A DNA stretch of 33,362 bases from a virus. Within the stretch, counting starts at the first letter, position 1, and the number at the start of each line of letters is the position of its first letter. The stretch lies in IMG/VR virus record IMGVR_UViG_3300037258_000223, positions 1 to 33,362 of that record. One strand, 5' to 3'. The position numbers and the translations under genes were made by a program. Shown piece after piece: positions 1-33,362 of this stretch. A model generated the notes under the pieces. It saw only the letters and a program-made list of their open reading frames with translations. It was not told the origin of the DNA and made no database searches.

Positions 1-134
1 GCGCTCGTTTCGTGCTGGCCGATGACCGGCAGCACCACGTTATCGACCATATGCACGGCAGATTCTTCCCAGCCCGTATCCTTGCCGATGGCCTCGATGA
101 GCCGGTCTCGTAGGGTTTGTTGACTCGTCACCAC
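1..134 (-). CDS. Small unknown protein, C-terminus beyond window edge
   Basis: The reading frame opens with tandem GTG codons (GTG GTG ACG) that overlap the stop of the upstream gene (ATG TGG TGA), so translation is probably coupled. The visible 44 residues begin MVTSQQTLRDRLIEAIGK and contain an amphipathic helical stretch. The frame stays open to the left edge. No family is recognised. It is the fourth gene of the minus-strand block that starts with the replication initiator, so a role in plasmid replication or maintenance is possible but only by location. Confidence 0.55.
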   Translation of the reverse strand, partial: MVTSQQTLRDRLIEAIGKDTGWEESAVHMVDNVVLPVIGQHETS

Positions 135-379
135 ATGGCCCCCCTCTCTTCAAGCGCATAGATTTCATCCTCACTCGCGGGGAACCTCGGTTCATCCGCC
201 GCAATGCCCTGCGCCCGCCCATACTCCGCCAGCGCCGCCTCGTTGCTTATGGCGCAATCGCGCAGCCTTCCCCACCAGAAGCGTCCGAACGCCAGGCCGG
301 TGAAGCGTTGCCAGCGGAGAGAGCCGTCTGGGTGGACGTTCATGGTGAGGGTGTTGAGGTGGAGGGAGGGAAGGATCAT
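128..379 (-). CDS. Unknown 83-residue protein downstream of the HerA-like ATPase
   Basis: The ATG overlaps the stop codon of the ATPase gene as ATGA, and its own stop overlaps the GTG of the next gene, so it fits a tightly packed operon. The protein has an aromatic centre (FGRFWWGRLRD) and an acidic C-terminal half (ASEDEIYALEERG). No signal peptide or membrane segment is evident and I do not recognise a family. An internal ATG at residue 13 (MNVHPDGS) is an alternative start, but the ATGA coupling favours the longer form. Its operon position suggests it works with Rep or the ATPase; this is inference. Confidence 0.6.
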   Translation of the reverse strand: MILPSLHLNTLTMNVHPDGSLRWQRFTGLAFGRFWWGRLRDCAISNEAALAEYGRAQGIAADEPRFPASEDEIYALEERGAMW

Positions 380-2034
380 GCGGCTTGCTCTCCGACATCA
401 AGAAACAGTGTTTGACTCGCCTTAATCTTCCTTCCCTGCACTTCAACAAGCCCATTCGTCTTAAGCAGCGATAGGTAATTGGCGAATGTCCCACCGCTTG
501 CCGTCATGTTTATGCGGTCGGCCAGATTGGCGCGGTCAATCGCCCGCGGGTAGTTCTCGATGAGGACATCGATCATCTTCGCCGGGCCGGTGCCCAACGC
601 TTCCTTCCATTGCCTGATAACGCTGCCGGGCGCGGGACTCTCGACTTCACCCGCCGCAGCCATACCGGCGGCAGTCAACCCAACCGTGTCATCCCATTCA
701 TCCAGATAACCCGCCCTGCGCAAAAGACTCACGTAGTTGGCCCACGTACCGCCAGTCCTTTTCATGCGCGCGAGAGTAGCCCATTGTGCTTTCGTGAACC
801 GCGCAGGATGGCGCGCTGCCAGCACCCGAAGCACGCGCAATTCCGCCCCGCCATTTCCCTTTGGAACAGTCGCGCTCATTTTCATCGCGGGCTTGGGCAT
901 TTTTGAAGGCGCTGCTTCCGCCGTCTTCTCTTCTGGAACCGGCGCACAACGCTCCGCAACCTTTTGGATCGCCTCCATGGAATCAAATAACCCTGCTGCG
1001 TGACCAGAAACAAAACCTTGCTTCACTCCGCGATCAAAGCCACGTTTTTCCGCTTCTACAAGCGCCGCTTCACTTACTGCCGCAGAGCCCGCCGATTCTC
1101 CACGCTTCTTTGTTTCCACCTTGATACTGAGCGCGCCCTTAATCCCGTCAATATCAATCTCCGCCAAATTGCCAGGAGCGCTTATAATCTCCCCGTCCTC
1201 CGGCGCCCGCGAGCTATCGAACGTCCTTATCTTCGGAAAGGCGATACGCTCCAACATCCCCACTTCCGGCGACCATAGCCAGCCCTCCCCGCGCGCAAGT
1301 GATGGCAATGATGTGATGATTTCGCGCCCCTGTTTTGCATCGGCCCATTCGCCTATCCACGCCTCTACGGCAGCGCGATCCTGGGGAGCAATCAGGCGCA
1401 TGGCAATGAGCGTTTCCACTTGTGTTAGCGAATCTTTATGAAGTTTTGCCGGACGCTGCGAGATAAGCATGATACGAAGCCCCCGCGAACGGCCGCCGCT
1501 GACAAGATTGTTGGCGGCGTGAAGCATCTTCCCCGATTCCGGATCGGGAACCCGCCCTTGTGGTGCAAACATGTGCGCCTCGTCGATGACCAGGTGCAGT
1601 GGTTTCTTGTTCGCCCGGAACAGCGACTCCGCGAATTGAGTGAACAGCCTAGTGCGCGCGCCCACCGTCATCAACGACGTGTCGATCACGCATGAAAAGC
1701 CGCCCGTGGCGATAATCTCCGCCAGTCGCGCGCCGGAATGTTCATCCAGCGGCACGTCCGCATGATCGCCTCCGAATATCACTACCGGGTAGCCCTCGGA
1801 TGTTCCATCGGCGAGCAGCCGAAGCCCCCACCATACGCCCGTAGGATCGATGGCGCATACGCGTTTCCCGGCGTCGAGCAGCCTTTCTGCTATCCCTTTG
1901 GCGGTTGTGGTCTTTCCGCTTCCGGTTTTGCCAAGAATGCCGATGTGTTGGGCGAGCGCTTCAGGGGGCAGAACAAATTTCTTGTGAGCAGTCTTGCCCG
2001 AAACCTTGGGCGCGGGTATATCGGATTCAACCAT
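376..2034 (-). CDS. HerA/DUF87-like ATPase with tandem C-terminal winged-helix-like modules
   Basis: A 552-residue P-loop ATPase of the HerA/FtsK-like class, hexameric motors that pump or translocate DNA. The Walker A motif GKTGSGKT is at residues 35-42 and Walker B VIDEAH at about 149-154. It is followed by GGRSRG (180-185) and an ISQRP segment typical of HerA/DUF87 proteins. After a hydrophilic linker come two similar modules, about 395-482 and 483-552, each ending in a related helix (WANYVSLLRRAGY and FANYLSLLKTNGL) like duplicated winged-helix DNA-binding units. A strong AAGGAG Shine-Dalgarno precedes the ATG. It lies directly downstream of the Rep gene in the same orientation. Role in replication, segregation, transfer or packaging is unknown; the HerA-fold call is firm, the function is not. 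Confidence 0.85.
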   Translation of the reverse strand: MVESDIPAPKVSGKTAHKKFVLPPEALAQHIGILGKTGSGKTTTAKGIAERLLDAGKRVCAIDPTGVWWGLRLLADGTSEGYPVVIFGGDHADVPLDEHSGARLAEIIATGGFSCVIDTSLMTVGARTRLFTQFAESLFRANKKPLHLVIDEAHMFAPQGRVPDPESGKMLHAANNLVSGGRSRGLRIMLISQRPAKLHKDSLTQVETLIAMRLIAPQDRAAVEAWIGEWADAKQGREIITSLPSLARGEGWLWSPEVGMLERIAFPKIRTFDSSRAPEDGEIISAPGNLAEIDIDGIKGALSIKVETKKRGESAGSAAVSEAALVEAEKRGFDRGVKQGFVSGHAAGLFDSMEAIQKVAERCAPVPEEKTAEAAPSKMPKPAMKMSATVPKGNGGAELRVLRVLAARHPARFTKAQWATLARMKRTGGTWANYVSLLRRAGYLDEWDDTVGLTAAGMAAAGEVESPAPGSVIRQWKEALGTGPAKMIDVLIENYPRAIDRANLADRINMTASGGTFANYLSLLKTNGLVEVQGRKIKASQTLFLDVGEQAA

Positions 2035-2102: not shown

Positions 2103-2972
2103 TTATAAAGCATTCGCCGTTGAAGTCAACGACTTCTGCGCATTTGCCTTTAGCCGGGCCATTCTGCCGACTTTACTGCGGTTGCGCTCCGCCATCGCCG
2201 CCTGAAATTCCTCCACTGACTTGCGCCACCACTTCAGCTTGAACCCGCTTACTCGCGCCCGCGCATTGCGCCGCAATATCTCCACCTTGACACTCATGTC
2301 AGAAAGCCCGTTCACTTGCCATATAGCCGGTTCCACTACTTTCCGAACCAAGTTGTCGGCGCGTTTATGAACATCTGGATCGACGCCCAACAATTCCCGA
2401 AGCCGCTCTACTGAAAACTTCTCTTCTTTCCGTTCCAGATTCGCCCGCAACTGAGTTAGCTCATAAAGCGCAATTCCATACTTGCTTGTCATGGAACAAA
2501 CAATTTCCGCTTTTATCCGGCCCCATTTTCCTGACGTTTCGATGATGGGGGTCAAGTCACGCGGTAGACGATATGCCAGCGTCGTTTTGTTCTTGAACTC
2601 ATTGGCCGTAATCTTGAAGAAGTCGAGCAAAACCATGCTTTCGCGTGACGTTATCTTGGCCCCGTTCCCATTTATTTCCGTCTTGCAGATTTGGACTTTC
2701 ACGCTCTGAAGCCGATTCAAGCTTGCCCATAGCCTGTCACTTCCCTCGTGCTTCGATAACGCTTGCTTGATCTGGGCGACCGGAACCTCCCACTTCGCCG
2801 CCGGGTCTAAAATATTCCCGCTGTCATGCGCATGCTGGTACAACAGATTGAAAATTGCTCTGTCCGGCGCCTCAAGTTGGTGCGCGCCCACCATTTCAAT
2901 GATTTCCCCCGGTTTCGGAAACCCGGAGAGATTGGACTTGACTTCGACGGCTCTAACGGAGGGCAATGCCAT
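2103..2972 (-). CDS. Rep_3/RepB-family plasmid replication initiator
   Basis: A 289-residue protein with the layout of iteron-binding initiators of the Rep_3 superfamily (RepE of F, RepA of pPS10): an N-terminal winged helix containing SKYGIALYELTQLRANL (about 165-181), then a second basic winged-helix region ending FKLKWWRKS. Such proteins bind iterons as monomers, open the origin together with DnaA, and repress their own gene as dimers. The call is supported by the adjacent iteron array immediately upstream. A promoter and an inverted half-iteron lie just before the ATG. The basic C-terminal tail (KVGRMARLKANAQK) may add DNA contacts. This gene is the main evidence that the phage replicates as a plasmid. 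Confidence 0.9.
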   Translation of the reverse strand: MALPSVRAVEVKSNLSGFPKPGEIIEMVGAHQLEAPDRAIFNLLYQHAHDSGNILDPAAKWEVPVAQIKQALSKHEGSDRLWASLNRLQSVKVQICKTEINGNGAKITSRESMVLLDFFKITANEFKNKTTLAYRLPRDLTPIIETSGKWGRIKAEIVCSMTSKYGIALYELTQLRANLERKEEKFSVERLRELLGVDPDVHKRADNLVRKVVEPAIWQVNGLSDMSVKVEILRRNARARVSGFKLKWWRKSVEEFQAAMAERNRSKVGRMARLKANAQKSLTSTANAL

Positions 2973-3034: not shown

Positions 3035-3040
3035 AGCCTG

Positions 3041-3167
3041 CCCAATGGGTAGGAGACATTCTGTGGATAAGTCGTATTTCGCCTATCCCAATGGGTAGGA
3101 AACAATCGCCCAATGAGTAGGAAGCGGCCAGCCCAATAGGTAGTAGACCTATGCCCAATAGGTAGCG
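3041..3167. repeat. Iteron array of the plasmid origin (five copies)
   Basis: Five direct repeats with core CCCAATRGGTAGGA start at 3041, 3087, 3109, 3132 and 3154. The last four are 22-23 bases apart, about two helical turns; the first two are 46 apart, exactly double, with a DnaA box in the gap. Copies 1 and 2 read CCCAATGGGTAGGA, copy 3 CCCAATGAGTAGGA, copies 4 and 5 CCCAATAGGTAG plus a divergent end. The repeats sit directly upstream of the Rep gene, the standard arrangement of an iteron-controlled theta replicon. Confidence 0.9.
3062..3070 (-). promoter_or_regulatory. DnaA box (perfect)
   Basis: TGTGGATAA on the plus strand is TTATCCACA on the minus strand, the consensus DnaA box. It lies between iterons 1 and 2, in the space where a phased iteron would otherwise be. 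Confidence 0.8.
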
Positions 3168-3250: not shown

Positions 3251-3263
3251 ACAAGCCTCTAAA

Positions 3264-3272
3264 TGTGGATAA
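3264..3272 (-). promoter_or_regulatory. Second DnaA box (perfect)
   Basis: A second perfect TGTGGATAA lies on the far side of the AT-rich stretch, in the same orientation as the first box. The two boxes therefore bracket the iteron cluster and the candidate unwinding region. Confidence 0.75.
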
Positions 3273-3328
3273 CCCACACCCCCAACCCTACACACGAGCC
3301 GCCTTCAGTAAAGCGCTCCCTTTTTGTG

Positions 3329-3355
3329 TTGACAAGCGTCACTTGTCACTATACT
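3329..3355 (+). promoter_or_regulatory. higBA promoter with operator palindrome
   Basis: TTGACA (3329-3334) and TATACT (3350-3355) are separated by 15 bases, a short spacer. Between and overlapping them lies a perfect 7-bp inverted repeat TGACAAG / CTTGTCA (3330-3348). It is well placed as the binding site through which HigA represses its own operon. The predicted transcription start falls at or just after the toxin ATG, so the toxin mRNA may be leaderless. Confidence 0.6.
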
Positions 3356-3358
3356 GCT

Positions 3359-3640
3359 ATGCTCGTGATTAAGGGATTCAAAAGCAAGAGCCTCAAAAAA
3401 CTGCATGCGGGAGATCGCAGCGGCATTCGCGGCGACTTGCTGGAGAAAACCGAACGCGTGCTTTTGATTCTCGACGGCATGGAAAATACGGAAGCCCTCA
3501 ATCTTCCGGGTTACAGACTGCATAGCCTGAAAGGCGACTTGAAGGGCTTCTGCTCAGTCTCGATACGGGCGAACTGGCGGATAATTTTCCGCTTTGAAGG
3601 CGGCCACGCCTATGACGTTGAACTTATCGACTACCACTGA
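3359..3640 (+). CDS. higB: HigB-family toxin (RelE/ParE-fold mRNA interferase)
   Basis: A 93-residue toxin with the conserved HigB C-terminal half: [26 protein letters not shown], then DVELIDYH at the end. HigB toxins cleave mRNA in the ribosomal A site and are neutralised by HigA. The frame is open further upstream to 3263, but the ATG at 3359 is chosen because family members begin near this point and the promoter overlaps the longer version. No Shine-Dalgarno is seen; an in-frame GTG at 3365 is a possible alternative. The toxin-first order is typical of higBA. On a plasmid-like element it would stabilise inheritance by killing cured cells. Confidence 0.88.
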
Positions 3641-3651
3641 AGGAGATTCCC

Positions 3652-3948
3652 ATGATAAAACCCATTCATCCCGGCGTTTTTGTCCGCGAAGACTGCCTTA
3701 AGCCTCTCGGCCTCTCCATCACCGAGGCCGCTAAAGTTTTGGGCGTCTCGCGCCAAGCCTTAAATAATCTCGTGAACGGCAAAGCGGCCATAAGCCTCGA
3801 TATGGCGATCCGCCTCACCAAGGCTTTCGGCAGTACCGTTGAAACGTGGCTCAAGCTTCAGATGAACTATGATCTGACGCAGGCCAGCAAGCGGGAAGGC
3901 GCGATCCGCGTGAAACGCTATAAACCCGAGGAGCGCCCGAGCCACTAG
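3652..3948 (+). CDS. higA: HigA-family antitoxin (XRE helix-turn-helix)
   Basis: A 98-residue antitoxin starting [14 protein letters not shown], the usual HigA/VapI opening. Its XRE-type helix-turn-helix spans about residues 22-60 ([22 protein letters not shown]). The C-terminal region ([13 protein letters not shown]) is the conserved dimerisation and toxin-contact part. A strong AAGGAG lies before the ATG, 11 bases after the toxin stop. It should bind HigB and repress the operon through the palindrome at 3330-3348. The C-terminus overlaps the convergent small gene by 4 bases. Confidence 0.9.
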
Positions 3949-4368: not shown

Positions 4369-5019
4369 GTGAAAATTATCACTATTGCAATGCAAAAAGG
4401 CGGAGGGGGTAAGAGTACCATGGCCGCTAACCTCGCTGTTGCCTCCGGCGTGAAGACCGCGCTCTTTGACCTTGATCCCCAGGAGAGTGTCACTGTCTGG
4501 GCCGAGCGGCGCGCGCAGGAAACGCCCCACGTCGAATTCCTGACCGAGCGCCGCCTGCCTGCCGCGCTTAAGGCCGCCGAGGATAACGGCTTCGAGCTTG
4601 TCATCATCGACACGCCGCCCGCAGCTGGGCCGCAAGCCTATGCCGCTGCACAATGCGCCGACCTCATTCTCATCCCGTGCAGGCCAAGCAAGATAGACCT
4701 CGACGCGCTCCGGCGCACGGCCAATCTTGTCAAGACACTCAATGTCCCGGCCTTCGTCGTCATCAATGCCGCGCCGCCCACCGCTACGTTGCTGCTTGAC
4801 GAGGCCCGGACGCTCATCGCCAAGGAGGGCCTTGACATCTGCCCCGCCGTGCTTCGTGAGCGCAGCGCTTTCCGCGTCTCATGGGCCTACCGCAAGGGCG
4901 TGACGGAATACGAGCCTAGGGGCAAAGCCGCAAAAGAGATTGTCGCCCTGAAGGAATGGGCCTTTTCACAACTTCAAGACTTCACAACTTCACGGATGAA
5001 AGGTAAAGCGCATGGCTAG
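4369..5019 (+). CDS. parA: ParA-family partition ATPase
   Basis: A 216-residue ParA of the short type without an N-terminal DNA-binding domain. The deviant Walker A KGGGGKST is at residues 10-17, Walker A' DLDPQ at 34-38 and Walker B VIIDTPP at 79-84. ParA binds nucleoid DNA in its ATP form and moves plasmid copies by interaction with the centromere-bound partner. It starts at GTG; no strong Shine-Dalgarno is seen. The next gene starts 8 bases before its stop, so the two are translationally coupled. The C-terminal tail (QLQDFTTSRMKG) is encoded by the second CTTCA octad tract, so its sequence may be shaped by the DNA site. Confidence 0.9.
   Translation: MKIITIAMQKGGGGKSTMAANLAVASGVKTALFDLDPQESVTVWAERRAQETPHVEFLTERRLPAALKAAEDNGFELVIIDTPPAAGPQAYAAAQCADLILIPCRPSKIDLDALRRTANLVKTLNVPAFVVINAAPPTATLLLDEARTLIAKEGLDICPAVLRERSAFRVSWAYRKGVTEYEPRGKAAKEIVALKEWAFSQLQDFTTSRMKGKAHG
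4971..4993. repeat. Second CTTCA octad tract inside the parA 3' end
   Basis: CTTCA recurs at 4972, 4980 and 4988, again 8 bases apart. This 23-base tract matches 4328-4350 upstream of parA at 20 of 23 positions. It lies in the last codons of parA just before the ribbon-helix-helix gene. It could be a second partition site or an internal operator. Confidence 0.55.
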
Positions 5020-5266
5020 GCGGTCACTGTTAATAGCGGAGGAGGAGCCGGAAGTAGTTGCGCCCGTTACGGAGCCGGTGCGGCCAATAGAGCCGAGAAA
5101 GCGCTCATCCAGGATTCATATCGGGGCCTATTACCCGCGCGGCGATCAGACTATTATCGCCTTCCAGCAGCTTGCGTTCGAGATAGAGAAAACCCAGCAG
5201 GAAATGCTCTACGAGGCCATCGGTGACTATTTGGCTAAGGTGAAGGCGGGTAGGGCGTTCAGGTGA
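5012..5266 (+). CDS. Ribbon-helix-helix centromere-binding protein (ParB/ParG-like)
   Basis: An 84-residue protein with an acidic and proline-rich N-terminal tail (about 1-30) followed by a ribbon-helix-helix-like core: SRIHIGAYYPRGDQTII as the beta strand and turn, then AFQQLAFEIEKTQQEMLYEAIGDYLAKV as two helices. Small ParA partners such as ParG and Omega share this design, with a flexible tail that stimulates ParA. Its ATG overlaps the parA stop in a different frame, typical of a parAB operon. The likely targets are the CTTCA octads. The role rests on context and fold; I cannot name a specific family. Confidence 0.75.
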   Translation: MARRSLLIAEEEPEVVAPVTEPVRPIEPRKRSSRIHIGAYYPRGDQTIIAFQQLAFEIEKTQQEMLYEAIGDYLAKVKAGRAFR

Positions 5267-9711: not shown

Positions 9712-12710
9712 CGGCCGACCGCCTGCAACTGCGAAAGCGAGAATGTGGAGTTGTAGATTTCAATATCCTGCATCCATCCGTCCAGGGTCTGTGCCGCCGC
9801 GCCGTCATCGCCTATAGTTTCCTGCGTGATGCCGGAGGGAAGCGCGGCCGCTGCGAACGTGCCTGCCGTATCCGCCGTGCCGTTCGCCACGAAGCTGTTT
9901 GCGCCCGAGCTATAGGACAGGGCCGCTTTAAAGACCGTGCCGGGGGTCACTGCCGAGAGCGCGCCGCCGGAAGTATAGGCCGTGCCGCTGATGACGATCT
10001 GCGCTTCCGGGACGCCCGTGGCGCTCAGGATGATCTTTATCTGGTTGCTGGCCGTGCCGTCATTGAAAGATACAAGCGTCGTCGCGCGGCAGGTATTGAT
10101 GTAGGGAATCACCGCCTGCACGTAAATCGTGCCGTTGGCGGAACTAAACCAGGGGATGCTGGTGACAGTGGCGGAATCGATATTGCGCGTGACCGAACTT
10201 GCGGTCGTGGGGATGTAGGAAGTGGGGACGCAACCAAGTTCAACGTCCATCCCCCAGTCATTCCATGTCTCGGAAGTGCCGGTGTAGCTGTTGCCCAGTG
10301 AAGTGCCGGTAGCCGGAGCGGTGGCGACATTGTTTCCGGCTATTAATGGTCCTGTGTTGGTTTGGCTTGAATCGACCGAATACGCCATGTAGGCGCGATA
10401 CCAGCCGTTGTTGATGGGCCGCACGCCAAAGGTGGAGACTAAGCCGTTGGCCTGCACCGCCCCCGCCGTAGTATCAAGGGTAATCCATGGGTCGCCTCCG
10501 GAATTTCCTATGCCGCGAAGTGACTGATAGCGCTGCGTGCCTCCTTGCCCGAAGAATGAGAAAGCATAGGTGTTGGTCGCGGTGAGATTGGTGCCGGCCA
10601 CATAAATAGAATGGTGCGTCGTCGCGACCGTTCCCTCATTGATTTGCGTAGCTGTCGCCGTTCCATCGGGGGCCGTAGAACTATTGTTGGTAATTGTGGC
10701 ATTTAAACCACCCCATCCAGCCGTTCCAAAAGTGGAATAGAGCCCGATATTCGTGCGCGCCTCTTCAATCTCCAGCCCGTTCAAGGCAAGCGTAGCCGGG
10801 TTGTAATCGAAGCGCGGAGTATTCGCCAGTACACCCGTGACCAGCGTGCCGGAAGAGTTGTATTCCGTGGCCGTTGTTCCCGAGCGCGTGAACGTGACGC
10901 TCGACGGCAGGCTGGCGTTCATGAAGTATTGGGAGGCGATGGGGAGCAATCCTACGCAGGAAGACACCTGGTAAACACCTGCGCTCAAATAGCTGATGGT
11001 GCAGCCCTGATTGCTTTGCAGTGTTATATCGTTGCCGTTGCCGATCTGACTGGTGGAGGAAAGCTTGACGGGGCCGGTGCAATTATTCTGTGCGACGAAC
11101 GAAAAGCCGCTCCCGAAGCCCGAGGTGCTGGTGGGCGGAAGCGTTGCCGCGACGCCCGTGGCGTTGCAGAAGGGGATGATTTGCCCGGCATATGTTGCGA
11201 GGATGGTGGCGGTGGACGAAGTTATGGGTGGGTTAAGAACGGGCTGCGCAAGGCTGAATTGGCCGCCAGAATTCGTGAAATTGGGGCCGAGCGACGTTGC
11301 ACCCGTGCCTCCGACAGTTGTGGCCGCCAAACCTGTAGCGGCCGTAAGGTTCGGTGCCGCACCGGGGGGCGCTACCCAAGTTCCATCGCCGCGCCAGAAA
11401 GTGCTGCTCGACGCGGACGTACCGCTATTCATCTGATTGACCGATACATTCCCGCTCAAGTCGGAGAAGCCAAGCTGCGCCAGGACTTGTTGCCCGGTTG
11501 CGTTGATATATTGCACGACTTGGTGTGCGGTGGCCGACGCCAGCGAGAGAAGGCCGCCCAGGTTCGATGTGGTGGGCGCGGGAATTGTGCTGGCGGGCAG
11601 GGTGCCCGTCACATTGGCGGCAGGGATGTTCGTAAGGGTATTGCTGGAGCCATTTATCGTCTTGTTCGTAAGGGTCTGGCTATCCGTCGTGCCGACAATA
11701 TTGCCCGTAGGGCCATTCTGGAAGGCGGCGCTTCCGAACAGGGAGCCGTTGGATTTTGTGCATGTCGTCGCCACTGCCCCGGCTGTGGTCGTGCAGTCGC
11801 CCGTTAGAGCAGGCATTTGCGCCGCCGTAGCCGCTCCGCTCAAATCAGAAAATCCAAGCTGGACAAGTACCTGCTGACCGCTGGAATTGATATACTGCAC
11901 GACCTCATGGGCTGTGCTGGAGGCCAGGGAAAGCAGGCCGCCCAACGCCGAGGTTGTCGGCGTGGGAATCGACGCGGAGGGTACGGCGCCGGTCAAATTT
12001 GCCGCGGGGATATTAATGAGACCGTTGACCGAGCCGCTGATTGTTTTGTTGGTAAGTGTTTGTGTGTCGCTTGTGCCTACAATGGCCCCTGATGGCCCCG
12101 TATCAAACGCCGCTGTGCCAAAAAGCGTGCCATTTGACTTCGTGCACGTGGTCGCTGCTGTCCCGGACGCGGCAGTGCAATCGCCGGTAAGAACGGGTAG
12201 GCGACCCGCAGCGAGCGTGCCGCTACTAATATTCGCCGCATTGGTCGTATCGGTCGTAGCCGATGCCACCAAGCCAAGATTGGTGCGCGCCGTGCCGACA
12301 TTTGGCAAATCGGACAAATTGCTTGATGCTTGCAGCGCCCCGCTTACGCTACTGGATAAGCCTGAAATTACGCCTGCCGTGACGAATTGCCCGACCTGCG
12401 CCCCGGCGGAATGCGCCGCCGCCGTGGTTCCTTCAATTCCCCTTGTGATGGTGTAGATATTTCCGGATATGGCGGTCACCATCACGATCTCAGGCGGCGA
12501 GCCGGAAGAGTCCTGAATTGTCAGGCGAAAGGGCGTTGTGCCGGGGAAGTTTGTCGTCGAAGCGAGCGTTAACGTGGTATCGGTCGAGCCTATCGAGGTC
12601 GCAAGCGTGCTGAGGGCAAAGTTCGAGTATTGTTCCGCATCCGACAGCGTTGAGAATAGCGCCACAGCGCCCGCCATGACAGCAAGCATTGCAAGCCGGA
12701 TACTGCGCAT
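9708..12710 (-). CDS. Large tail-fibre/adhesin-like protein with signal peptide and LamG-like C-terminus
   Basis: A 1000-residue protein with GAGGA before ATG. Residues 1-25 look like a Sec signal peptide (RLAMLAVMAGAVALFSTLSDA). Residues about 171-298 and 299-420 are two copies of a 128-residue repeat (LTGDCT, TTCTKSNG, TLTNKTI, IPAAN, LGGLLSLAS, QLGFSDLSG). The central part resembles fibre-shaft sequence. From about 600 a DUF-like carbohydrate-binding region with FTRSGTTATEYNSSG and a C-terminal LamG/concanavalin-like jelly roll (about 845-1000, ending DIEIYNSTFSLSQLQAVGR) follow. These are receptor-binding designs. Five or more paired cysteines are in the repeats, consistent with an oxidising compartment. 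Confidence 0.8.
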   Translation of the reverse strand: MRSIRLAMLAVMAGAVALFSTLSDAEQYSNFALSTLATSIGSTDTTLTLASTTNFPGTTPFRLTIQDSSGSPPEIVMVTAISGNIYTITRGIEGTTAAAHSAGAQVGQFVTAGVISGLSSSVSGALQASSNLSDLPNVGTARTNLGLVASATTDTTNAANISSGTLAAGRLPVLTGDCTAASGTAATTCTKSNGTLFGTAAFDTGPSGAIVGTSDTQTLTNKTISGSVNGLINIPAANLTGAVPSASIPTPTTSALGGLLSLASSTAHEVVQYINSSGQQVLVQLGFSDLSGAATAAQMPALTGDCTTTAGAVATTCTKSNGSLFGSAAFQNGPTGNIVGTTDSQTLTNKTINGSSNTLTNIPAANVTGTLPASTIPAPTTSNLGGLLSLASATAHQVVQYINATGQQVLAQLGFSDLSGNVSVNQMNSGTSASSSTFWRGDGTWVAPPGAAPNLTAATGLAATTVGGTGATSLGPNFTNSGGQFSLAQPVLNPPITSSTATILATYAGQIIPFCNATGVAATLPPTSTSGFGSGFSFVAQNNCTGPVKLSSTSQIGNGNDITLQSNQGCTISYLSAGVYQVSSCVGLLPIASQYFMNASLPSSVTFTRSGTTATEYNSSGTLVTGVLANTPRFDYNPATLALNGLEIEEARTNIGLYSTFGTAGWGGLNATITNNSSTAPDGTATATQINEGTVATTHHSIYVAGTNLTATNTYAFSFFGQGGTQRYQSLRGIGNSGGDPWITLDTTAGAVQANGLVSTFGVRPINNGWYRAYMAYSVDSSQTNTGPLIAGNNVATAPATGTSLGNSYTGTSETWNDWGMDVELGCVPTSYIPTTASSVTRNIDSATVTSIPWFSSANGTIYVQAVIPYINTCRATTLVSFNDGTASNQIKIILSATGVPEAQIVISGTAYTSGGALSAVTPGTVFKAALSYSSGANSFVANGTADTAGTFAAAALPSGITQETIGDDGAAAQTLDGWMQDIEIYNSTFSLSQLQAVGR

Positions 12711-26818: not shown

Positions 26819-27490
26819 CTAACTTCTGTTTTCTGCTTTGAGTCGTTTGGTCTGCCAAGCCTTAATTGCCATTGCACTTCTCTGCTCTTGGGTCATGGCA
26901 CCAAGGTGATCTCGTATTTTCTGCTTGGTAGCTTCCGTATGTTTTCGCTTCTTTGCAGAAGCACGGATCTTTTCTATACTCTCAGGAAGATGCTTCCGAC
27001 CAGACATTCCGCTACTGTTGCGGCCCTTCAAGGCTGCGCTGACTTTAGCCACATGTTCTGACGTCTTTTTCCTACCCTTTAGCGCCGCTCGTATTTTCTG
27101 TTTGTGCTCTTCTGTATGCGAACAGCCTTTATTGCGATTCCACATTTTCTCCATGATCCATTTCGGCCTTGGCTTGCCTCGCTTACTATCGCCCATGATC
27201 TTGCCGTATTTACGGCGCACCCACCCAAATAGCTTGTTGTTGAGACGCACGCCATCTCTGTCCATGCACATAGCAACAAGCGCGTAAACCAACCCTCTTA
27301 TTCCTGGGTGCATTTTCACGAGAAGTTGATGAGCTACGAAATGCTCTTCGGGTGTAAGTCGGACAAGGTTATCGGGGTTGTTCGTCCCACCCATACACTT
27401 GGGCAATATGTGATGTGATTCCGAATACCCCTTGATAACCCGATGCTTTGCCCGTGAAATCAGTGCCTCATAAGCTTTCGCATAATCCAT
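26819..27490 (-). CDS. HNH homing endonuclease with NUMOD3 repeats
   Basis: A 223-residue free-standing endonuclease. The HNH module is at residues about 22-55 (SHHILPKCMGGTNNPDNLV, then EEHFVAHQLL). From about 120 there are repeated NUMOD3-like DNA-binding segments (HTEEHKQKIRAALKGRK, SEHVAKVSAALKGRN, HTEATKQKIRDHL) and a basic C-terminus. Such enzymes cut a cognate empty site and copy themselves into it. The gene is visibly more AT-rich than the surrounding genes and sits between capsid and a small gene, a common insertion spot. No good Shine-Dalgarno is seen. Confidence 0.9.
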   Translation of the reverse strand: MDYAKAYEALISRAKHRVIKGYSESHHILPKCMGGTNNPDNLVRLTPEEHFVAHQLLVKMHPGIRGLVYALVAMCMDRDGVRLNNKLFGWVRRKYGKIMGDSKRGKPRPKWIMEKMWNRNKGCSHTEEHKQKIRAALKGRKKTSEHVAKVSAALKGRNSSGMSGRKHLPESIEKIRASAKKRKHTEATKQKIRDHLGAMTQEQRSAMAIKAWQTKRLKAENRS

Positions 27491-31712: not shown

Positions 31713-33362
31713 TTAAAGGCGCAATGGCTTGACTGTCGCGGTGCCTCCTGAGATCAGAAGCTCCGTCGCTCCCCATACCAGCGCGTCAACTCTGTTCGGG
31801 CTGTCTGTGCTTTCCAGCGGAACCCATGTCACCATTTCGTCTTCAAGGCCGATGAATGTGCCGCAGTGATGCATGCACCCCTTCTCGTACAACGCCGCAA
31901 CCGGCTCCGCCCGCGCATGCTTTCCACGCGAGGCATGCACCAGCTTTACCGGCGCGTTCGGGTCCGAAACTCGTATGGTGCTCTCCACCATCGCGCCTCC
32001 GAAATTCGCCTCCGCGATGATTCGATCCGCGCTATATTTCCGATAAAGCGCAACGGCCAGGTCGCCCCATTGTTTCGGGCTATACCTTCCAGAATGGTCG
32101 GCCAGAACATAACCGTGCTTCTGCGCGTCCACACCCTCGACTACGAGTCCAACTTCATCGTTCTTGGCTTTGTCTCCGCCCGACGGGTCCACCGCGACCA
32201 CGATCCGCTTAAGCGCAGGAGCTTCTTTTACGCGAAGATTCTCAATCTGGTCTCGCTTCCACAGAGCGCCCGGCACTTCCGCGCTGAACGCCTCCTCCGG
32301 AGTTGCCGGATATTCCCGGCGGAAGTTGTGGACGCCATTAAGCTCGACAATCTTTGCTCGACGCCAGGCGATTTGCTCCAGGTCCAAGCGATAGAGTTGC
32401 TGGTATGCGAGTTCATCCGCCGTCGGCGTGAATCCCTGCGGCAATGTCTTGCGGTAATCCGGCTGCCAGAACCAAGGGATGAAGACGAGGATATATTCGC
32501 CCTCTCCCCGCATGGCCGCAGCGCACATATCGTAGAACAAGCCCTGACGGCCAGCCGACGTACTCTCAAGAATGACCTCCGTGCCAGGCTCATCCGGTAC
32601 CGCCTGCAATGCGCCTGCAACGTGTGTTGCCGCATTCGGCCAATATGCCACCTCGCTGTTGTGAGAGCCGCCTTGTAGAACGCAGTACGAGTGGTCAGCG
32701 TGATCTATCTCGAAATCGCGCACTATCTGCTCGCCGACATGCTCAATCGAAACTATCGGCACCCACGCATAGCCATTGGAAACCTCTACTGCGCCATAAT
32801 TCCCGTCGCGCTTACGTGGCGGGCTTCCCTTTCCTATTTCTTTTGCAAGGACATCAACGCCTGGCCCGGTAAGCCGAAGCGTCCACGCCTCACGCTCATT
32901 TCGGCCATGACGAATCGCTGCCGCTCTGTAACTTATGGAAGCCCACCCATATCCCAAGGAGGCCAGGGCTGAGCGCAGACCTGTAATCGTCGCCGATCGG
33001 ATGGATGTCACCGATATACGGCGATCACACTCCGGCGACGAGTGTCCATCTCCTGAAATATAGCCATGAACCAGACCGCGAACAAAGTCCTCCCCCATGC
33101 GGCTCCAGTCGCAGGGAAATCGCTTGTCATCTTTCCTTCCGACAAAGGATTCCAGCCATAGAGCCAGCGAGCGACCATAAGCAACCACGTTCACCGACTT
33201 GCTGTCCGGACGCGGAGAGACTTTAACGGAAGTGTATATTTTGGGCACGCACGCAAGCCATTCAACAGTTCGCCGCACCTCATCTTCGTGCACGGTAAAC
33301 GCAACCGCGCTTGCCTGGCGACGACTGCCAGATTGGCGCAGTATGCAGCCCTCGGCTAGATA
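31713..33362 (-). CDS. terL: Terminase large subunit with intein (5' end beyond window)
   Basis: The frame is open from the right edge. The C-terminal extein (31713-32657) starts SEVAYWPNAATHV, the ATPase Walker B region of TerL. It continues with GTEVILESTSAGRQGLFYD (coupling motif) and the RNase H-like nuclease: VAVDPSGGDK, RIIAEANFGG and PNRVDALVWGA supply the acidic residues. The region before it is an intein ending in His-Asn, followed by extein Ser (HN/S). Spliced TerL would package DNA and cut it. The N-terminal extein and the intein start are beyond the window. Confidence 0.9.
   Translation of the reverse strand, partial: YLAEGCILRQSGSRRQASAVAFTVHEDEVRRTVEWLACVPKIYTSVKVSPRPDSKSVNVVAYGRSLALWLESFVGRKDDKRFPCDWSRMGEDFVRGLVHGYISGDGHSSPECDRRISVTSIRSATITGLRSALASLGYGWASISYRAAAIRHGRNEREAWTLRLTGPGVDVLAKEIGKGSPPRKRDGNYGAVEVSNGYAWVPIVSIEHVGEQIVRDFEIDHADHSYCVLQGGSHNSEVAYWPNAATHVAGALQAVPDEPGTEVILESTSAGRQGLFYDMCAAAMRGEGEYILVFIPWFWQPDYRKTLPQGFTPTADELAYQQLYRLDLEQIAWRRAKIVELNGVHNFRREYPATPEEAFSAEVPGALWKRDQIENLRVKEAPALKRIVVAVDPSGGDKAKNDEVGLVVEGVDAQKHGYVLADHSGRYSPKQWGDLAVALYRKYSADRIIAEANFGGAMVESTIRVSDPNAPVKLVHASRGKHARAEPVAALYEKGCMHHCGTFIGLEDEMVTWVPLESTDSPNRVDALVWGATELLISGGTATVKPLRL
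32658..33362 (-). mobile_element. Intein with LAGLIDADG homing endonuclease (partial)
   Basis: At least 235 codons lie upstream of the splice junction and show intein features. At the window edge is YLAEGCI, a probable first LAGLIDADG motif. FVRGLVHGYISGDGHS is the second, with its acidic Asp. The C-terminal intein blocks read VRDFEIDHADHSY, CVLQGGSHN and then extein Ser; Asn is the cyclising residue and Ser the +1 nucleophile. The intein sits at the TerL Walker B motif, a place where inteins are known to lodge. Confidence 0.88.

Follow-up and report, generated by a model that had tools for sequence, protein, structure and literature searches.

What does a HerA-class motor do in a tailed phage, and does its position directly behind a plasmid replication gene reveal its role? 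The question is raised by the window analysed here, the entire IMG/VR record IMGVR_UViG_3300037258_000223 (33,362 bases, classed linear). An initial annotation of this DNA described a HerA-like ATPase after rep, with two duplicated C-terminal DNA-binding modules, no NurA nuclease nearby and no obvious place in a standard characterised family. It further proposed that the motor belongs with the plasmid replicon and may form a module with rep and two small genes that follow. Our analysis bears out the description and turns against the proposed affiliation.

A plasmid replicon on a phage record

The record has no end repeats in its 33,362 bases and is therefore probably a partial phage genome. 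A plasmid maintenance region is recognisable by a Rep_3-family initiator, iterons, ParA with an RHH-type partner and a HigBA pair (Table 1); the iterons, spaced 22-23 bp apart with the exception of one 46-bp gap, make up an iteron origin for Rep. The remainder is given over to tailed-phage structural genes, with a large terminase of its own (Terminase_6C Pfam match, 1e-11), and this combination makes it most likely that the record is part of a phage-plasmid. The nearest relatives of the window Rep are found on plasmids of Acidisoma and Acidibrevibacterium (Acetobacteraceae, 47-48%), suggesting an acetobacterial host for the window phage. A search of viral contigs for close relatives of this Rep confirmed none. 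An Acidibrevibacterium plasmid (L137) likewise has a RelE/HTH pair by its rep-parA genes.

On the minus strand the gene order is rep, ATPase, an 83-aa ORF and a gene that runs off the left end of the record. The stop codon of rep and the start of the ATPase gene are separated by 68 bp, so that a single operon is likely, and the start of the 83-aa ORF overlaps the stop of the motor gene as ATGA. The gene at the left edge, when checked, proved to be a small ORF with a GTG start. At the other end of the record, ~220 residues that precede the terminase in frame and end in ...YCVLQGGSHNS look like the C-terminal portion of a homing-type intein, a call made by reading the sequence. An ORF resembling an HNH-type endonuclease lies among the structural genes (26819-27490, minus strand).

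Table 1. Features of the window, with positions counted from its first base.
Feature	Position	Strand	Evidence
Start (GTG) of a small gene, truncated after 43 codons at the left end of the record	1..131	-	
Small ORF, 83 aa, not conserved with the motor family	128..379	-	
ATPase of the HerA/DUF87 family, 552 aa, with tandem winged helices at the C-terminus	376..2034	-	
Winged helix 2, residues 471-540	415..624	-	alignment, profile, model
Winged helix 1, residues 397-461	652..846	-	alignment, profile, model
Helix/coiled-coil linker, residues 295-363	946..1152	-	AlphaFold2 model
ASCE/RecA-type motor core, residues ~22-290	1165..1971	-	alignments, structural match
Rep_3-family (RepM-like) replication initiator	2103..2972	-	Pfam and NCBIfam profiles, relatives
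Five iterons CCCAATRGGTAG, each 12-14 bp, upstream of rep	3039..3165	+	
Toxin-antitoxin pair (HigB-like toxin, HTH antitoxin), situated between rep and parA	3263-3948	+	
ParA partition ATPase and small RHH-type partner	4369..5266	+	profile matches
Phage large terminase C-terminal part and apparent intein C-terminal part, cut by the right end	31713..33362	-	

A HerA motor core without a HAS barrel

The AlphaFold2 model of the motor protein (mean pLDDT 88.6) consists of a motor core, a long helix (residues 322-363), a disordered linker (365-396) and two winged helices. The core matches the DUF87/HerA Pfam profile over residues ~22-290 (1.7e-8, over the cut-off). NCBIfam HerA matches at 2e-15, yet far below its equivalog cut-off. 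In PADLOC, the HerA models give 5e-22 and mad8 gives 1e-20, and the FtsK_SpoIIIE Pfam match to the motor is below cut-off (E 0.026). The core carries Walker A (GKTGSGKT, 35-42), Walker B (LVIDEAH, 148-154) and SQRP (192-195) motifs, and the segment IDPTGVWWGLR that follows Walker A (62-72) is a family signature. K41 of Walker A, D63, E152 of Walker B and R194 are invariant across 72 diverse relatives, and G40 of Walker A is also invariant in the family alignments. Because the Walker A lysine, the Walker B glutamate and R194 do not vary, the protein is expected to be an active ATPase.

In structural comparisons, the modelled core aligns with HerA 8xau at Z 26.2 (243 residues, 2.7 A), with the HerA of HerA-NurA (4d2i, 9x1m) at Z 25, with the compact Sulfolobus (STIV) virus packaging ATPase B204 at Z 19, with TrwB at Z ~18 and with FtsK at Z ~15. 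There is no N-terminal HAS barrel and no room for one, the motor starting at residue ~22. From residue 15-16 on, the model aligns to HerA from residue 128-164 onward, the earlier part of HerA, which contains the barrel, is without a counterpart, and residues 1-17 mostly have pLDDT <50. The model also holds no nuclease domain, a C-terminal RNase H-like domain included, and ends in the two winged helices.

These features set the protein apart from each of the systems that it resembles. With the HerA of HerA-NurA it shares the RecA-like core, Walker A and B and the conserved Q-R motif, but it has neither the HAS barrel nor a NurA gene, its core is shorter and two winged helices are added. NurA was found in none of 50 family-bearing records, which may be fragments, by a search that recovered 7 of 14 positive controls; its absence from the window thus extends to the 49 other records. 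The anti-phage HerA proteins (SIR2-HerA and DUF4297-HerA; 8xau, 8wof, 8zit) and MADS mad8 have the motor core in common with the window protein, which differs in having no HAS barrel for effector docking. FtsK is ordered as motor, linker and C-terminal winged helix. The window protein resembles FtsK/SpoIIIE in this order, in having a C-terminal winged-helix domain and, distantly and by structure (Z ~15), in its motor; unlike FtsK/SpoIIIE, its motor is nearer HerA, it has two MarR-like winged helices where FtsK has one gamma domain, and it has no membrane domain.

The winged helices are duplicated and can be lost

Local alignment of the two C-terminal modules with each other gave a score of 80, which was reached by none of 2000 shuffles (mean 22.3, sd 4.3), and profile-profile comparison gave a probability of 99.6% (E 5e-24). 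By these sequence comparisons the modules are a genuine, ancient duplication, and both fold as winged helices in the model, as the initial annotation had supposed. The pair modelled alone reached pLDDT 93.5 and pTM 0.85, and the modules are therefore predicted to pack in a defined arrangement. Module 1 aligns with MarR-type winged helices (Z 10.5, 67 residues, 1.9 A; VIA-align) and with the C-terminal winged helix of RuvB (Z 9.2), and module 2 with similar regulators (Z 9-10). TubR, a plasmid partition protein, is also among the winged-helix matches (Z 9.6). Sequence profiles find MarR/ArsR/DtxR/CRP regulators independently and weakly (best E 3e-4), and a Foldseek search in which the two C-terminal modules were treated as one unit had no hit with E below 0.001.

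At least two modules are kept by 100 of 106 family members (99 with two, one with three); of the others, one has a single module and five have none. The ATPase-only members L025, L095, L055 and L058 (353-419 aa) have motors 57-60% identical to that of the window. In the ATPase tree, members without winged helices are close neighbours of the window; the pair can thus be lost, and the winged helices are not strictly required. No standalone winged-helix gene that would complement the ATPase-only members was found in their loci. L058 additionally carries a second, truncated motor copy (9887-10255).

The motor gene usually lies with phage recombination and integration genes

We searched 50 family-bearing viral records whole, most of which are fragments, with neighbouring genes called by a simple longest-ORF script, so that some neighbour ORFs may be wrong. 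RecT was found in 13 of these records, YqaJ in 17, Erf in 5, a DUF3799 nuclease in 6 and a tyrosine integrase in 26. At least one of RecT, YqaJ, Erf and DUF3799 is recognisable in 29 of the 50; the window, a partial record, has none of the four. RecT or YqaJ is encoded on the strand of the motor in all 23 records that have them, and the nearest of them is within 8 kb of the motor in 19 of the 23. When the motor gene was moved randomly within the same record, 7.6 such records were expected and 19 were never reached in 20,000 random placements, a test that cannot separate the motor from other early-region genes. The integrase is within 8 kb of the motor in 20 of 26 records (8.5 expected by random placement), and 19 of the 26 have it downstream on the strand of the motor. 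Typically the genes are arranged as recT/yqaJ, herA, int, and this succession of recombinase, motor and integrase recalls the lambda pL operon. In L068, which the ATPase tree places nearest to the window, RecT is encoded 4.1 kb upstream of the motor. SSB, a DnaB-like helicase and RecE-like exonucleases are further neighbours, and DNA methylases and DUF5131 recur. DUF5131 (phage Gp37/Gp68) clusters near the motor in 17 loci, always on the same strand and sometimes directly adjacent (for example L026:1089-2120).

The plasmid genes of the window do not recur in this way. Rep_3 occurs in one of the 50 family-bearing records, which is the window itself, and ParA in three (the window and two others). 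The nearest Rep relatives are on plasmids with no such ATPase next to rep, and no ORF similar to the small 83-aa ORF downstream was found in the family loci. These results speak against the earlier proposals that the motor belongs with the plasmid replicon and that rep, the ATPase and the two small genes together make up one module. The conserved neighbourhood is a phage recombination and integration region.

Distribution of the family

Members of the family are encoded mostly by temperate phages. Scanning IMG/VR with an alignment of these proteins confirmed at least 297 contigs, of which 80 were kept, and a family scan of 84,980 species genomes found at least 22 loci; both counts are lower bounds, as the scans needed exact short patterns, and the pattern sets differ between them. 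In the GenBank phage collection the family was found in 1 of 50,697 records, from a spring metagenome, with the same outcome for three different queries. On plasmids, 81 records matched, mostly partially or distantly, and the good matches are mainly actinobacterial. The HerA-like/DUF87 proteins of actinobacterial plasmids (Mycolicibacterium, Tsukamurella) are 35-41% identical to the window motor, and those that were aligned have both winged helices; unlike the phage loci, their carriers are large plasmids without a shared neighbourhood. PHROG 2666 and 7035 and the 'HerA helicase' of Caudoviricetes sp. MW202482, which is 35% identical to the window motor, probably represent the same family, under names that are automatic only. 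Among 13 records of phages that share the window's portal, several of them short fragments, none has the motor, and we therefore regard the gene as accessory and mobile between phages. Literature searches, which did not extend to the 2004 FtsK-HerA survey of Iyer and colleagues, turned up no paper on this phage family and thus no functional study of it.

A proposed translocase for phage recombination and its alternatives

The preserved active site and the HerA core together support an ATP-driven double-stranded DNA motor. We tentatively propose, with slightly less than even confidence, that it is a double-stranded DNA translocase loaded by its own winged helices and acting in early phage DNA recombination or replication. 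On this proposal, the protein would assemble into a HerA-class ring ATPase in which the HAS barrel, the dock for the nuclease in HerA, was lost or never present. The two winged helices on their flexible linker would be the DNA-binding part, loading the ring or positioning it; they probably replace the HAS barrel as the way to reach DNA, a form of addressing that resembles FtsK with its gamma domain instead of HerA with its docked nuclease. The ring would then translocate along double-stranded phage DNA early in infection or upon prophage induction, sharing a pathway with the exonuclease (YqaJ/RecE type), the annealase (RecT/Erf) and the integrase, and its task might be processing, branch migration or concatemer handling in recombination-dependent replication. 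The window would be an exception, its phage-plasmid having placed the motor behind an iteron rep gene and not beside recombination genes.

That the gene lies in the early recombination and integration region speaks for such a role rather than for segregation or packaging. Unrelated accessory genes are found in the early regions of temperate phages as well, so what co-location shows is that the genes are expressed as a unit, not that they act in one pathway; it further counts against a role in recombination that no single partner gene is constant across the 50 records. To our knowledge, the textbook scheme of YqaJ/RecE plus RecT contains no ring translocase. It is conceivable, though we rather doubt it, that these proteins constitute a phage DNA motor class of their own, in which tandem winged helices direct a compact HerA ring to DNA and the ring serves recombination with YqaJ/RecE and RecT.

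The same early position would suit a motor for host takeover or superinfection exclusion, which would attack or block competing DNA or counter host defence much as the SIR2-HerA, DUF4297-HerA or MADS (mad8) ATPases do, but would be recruited by its own winged helices. Temperate phages often carry such genes in their early accessory regions. Among the neighbours are methyltransferases, reverse transcriptases and DUF5131, all PADLOC candidate defence families, and the PADLOC HerA and mad8 matches point the same way. However, the structure and sequence matches span the common motor core only, the barrel on which an effector would dock is missing, and no SIR2, DUF4297 or nuclease effector partner is among the 25 most frequent PADLOC families listed for 134 upstream and 131 downstream neighbours. 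We consider this role fairly unlikely. A lower probability still attaches to an FtsK-like motor for segregation or dimer resolution of the phage-plasmid, whose winged helices would recognise the replicon. The probable operon with rep, the domain order known from FtsK, the TubR match and ParA in two other records are in its favour, but 47 of the 50 family records have no ParA match and 49 have no Rep_3, the 26 with a tyrosine integrase are presumably integrating, and the motor is absent beside rep on the plasmids of the nearest Rep relatives.

That the protein is a DNA-packaging ATPase, as the label of PHROG 2666 (terminase large subunit) implies, is very improbable. The window motor does match PHROG 2666 (6e-23), and its core resembles STIV B204. 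The terminase family phrog_2 alone, however, is matched in 18 of the 50 family records, MW202482 included, and the record of MW202482 annotates a separate large terminase; the motor gene sits in the early region, and its model shows no nuclease domain. For the window motor, the terminase label is contradicted by the separate large terminase that is present.

Implications

The PHROG terminase label on proteins of this family needs review, as it probably spreads a wrong annotation. With at least 297 viral contigs compared with 1 of 50,697 GenBank phage records, the family has largely been missed by culture-based phage work. A HerA-class motor that, as predicted, carries its own DNA-binding domains is useful for asking how such rings load. 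Lambda Red and RecE/RecT are understood as a nuclease and an annealase only. If the motor acts with phage recombinases, it would add a double-stranded DNA translocase to phage recombination.
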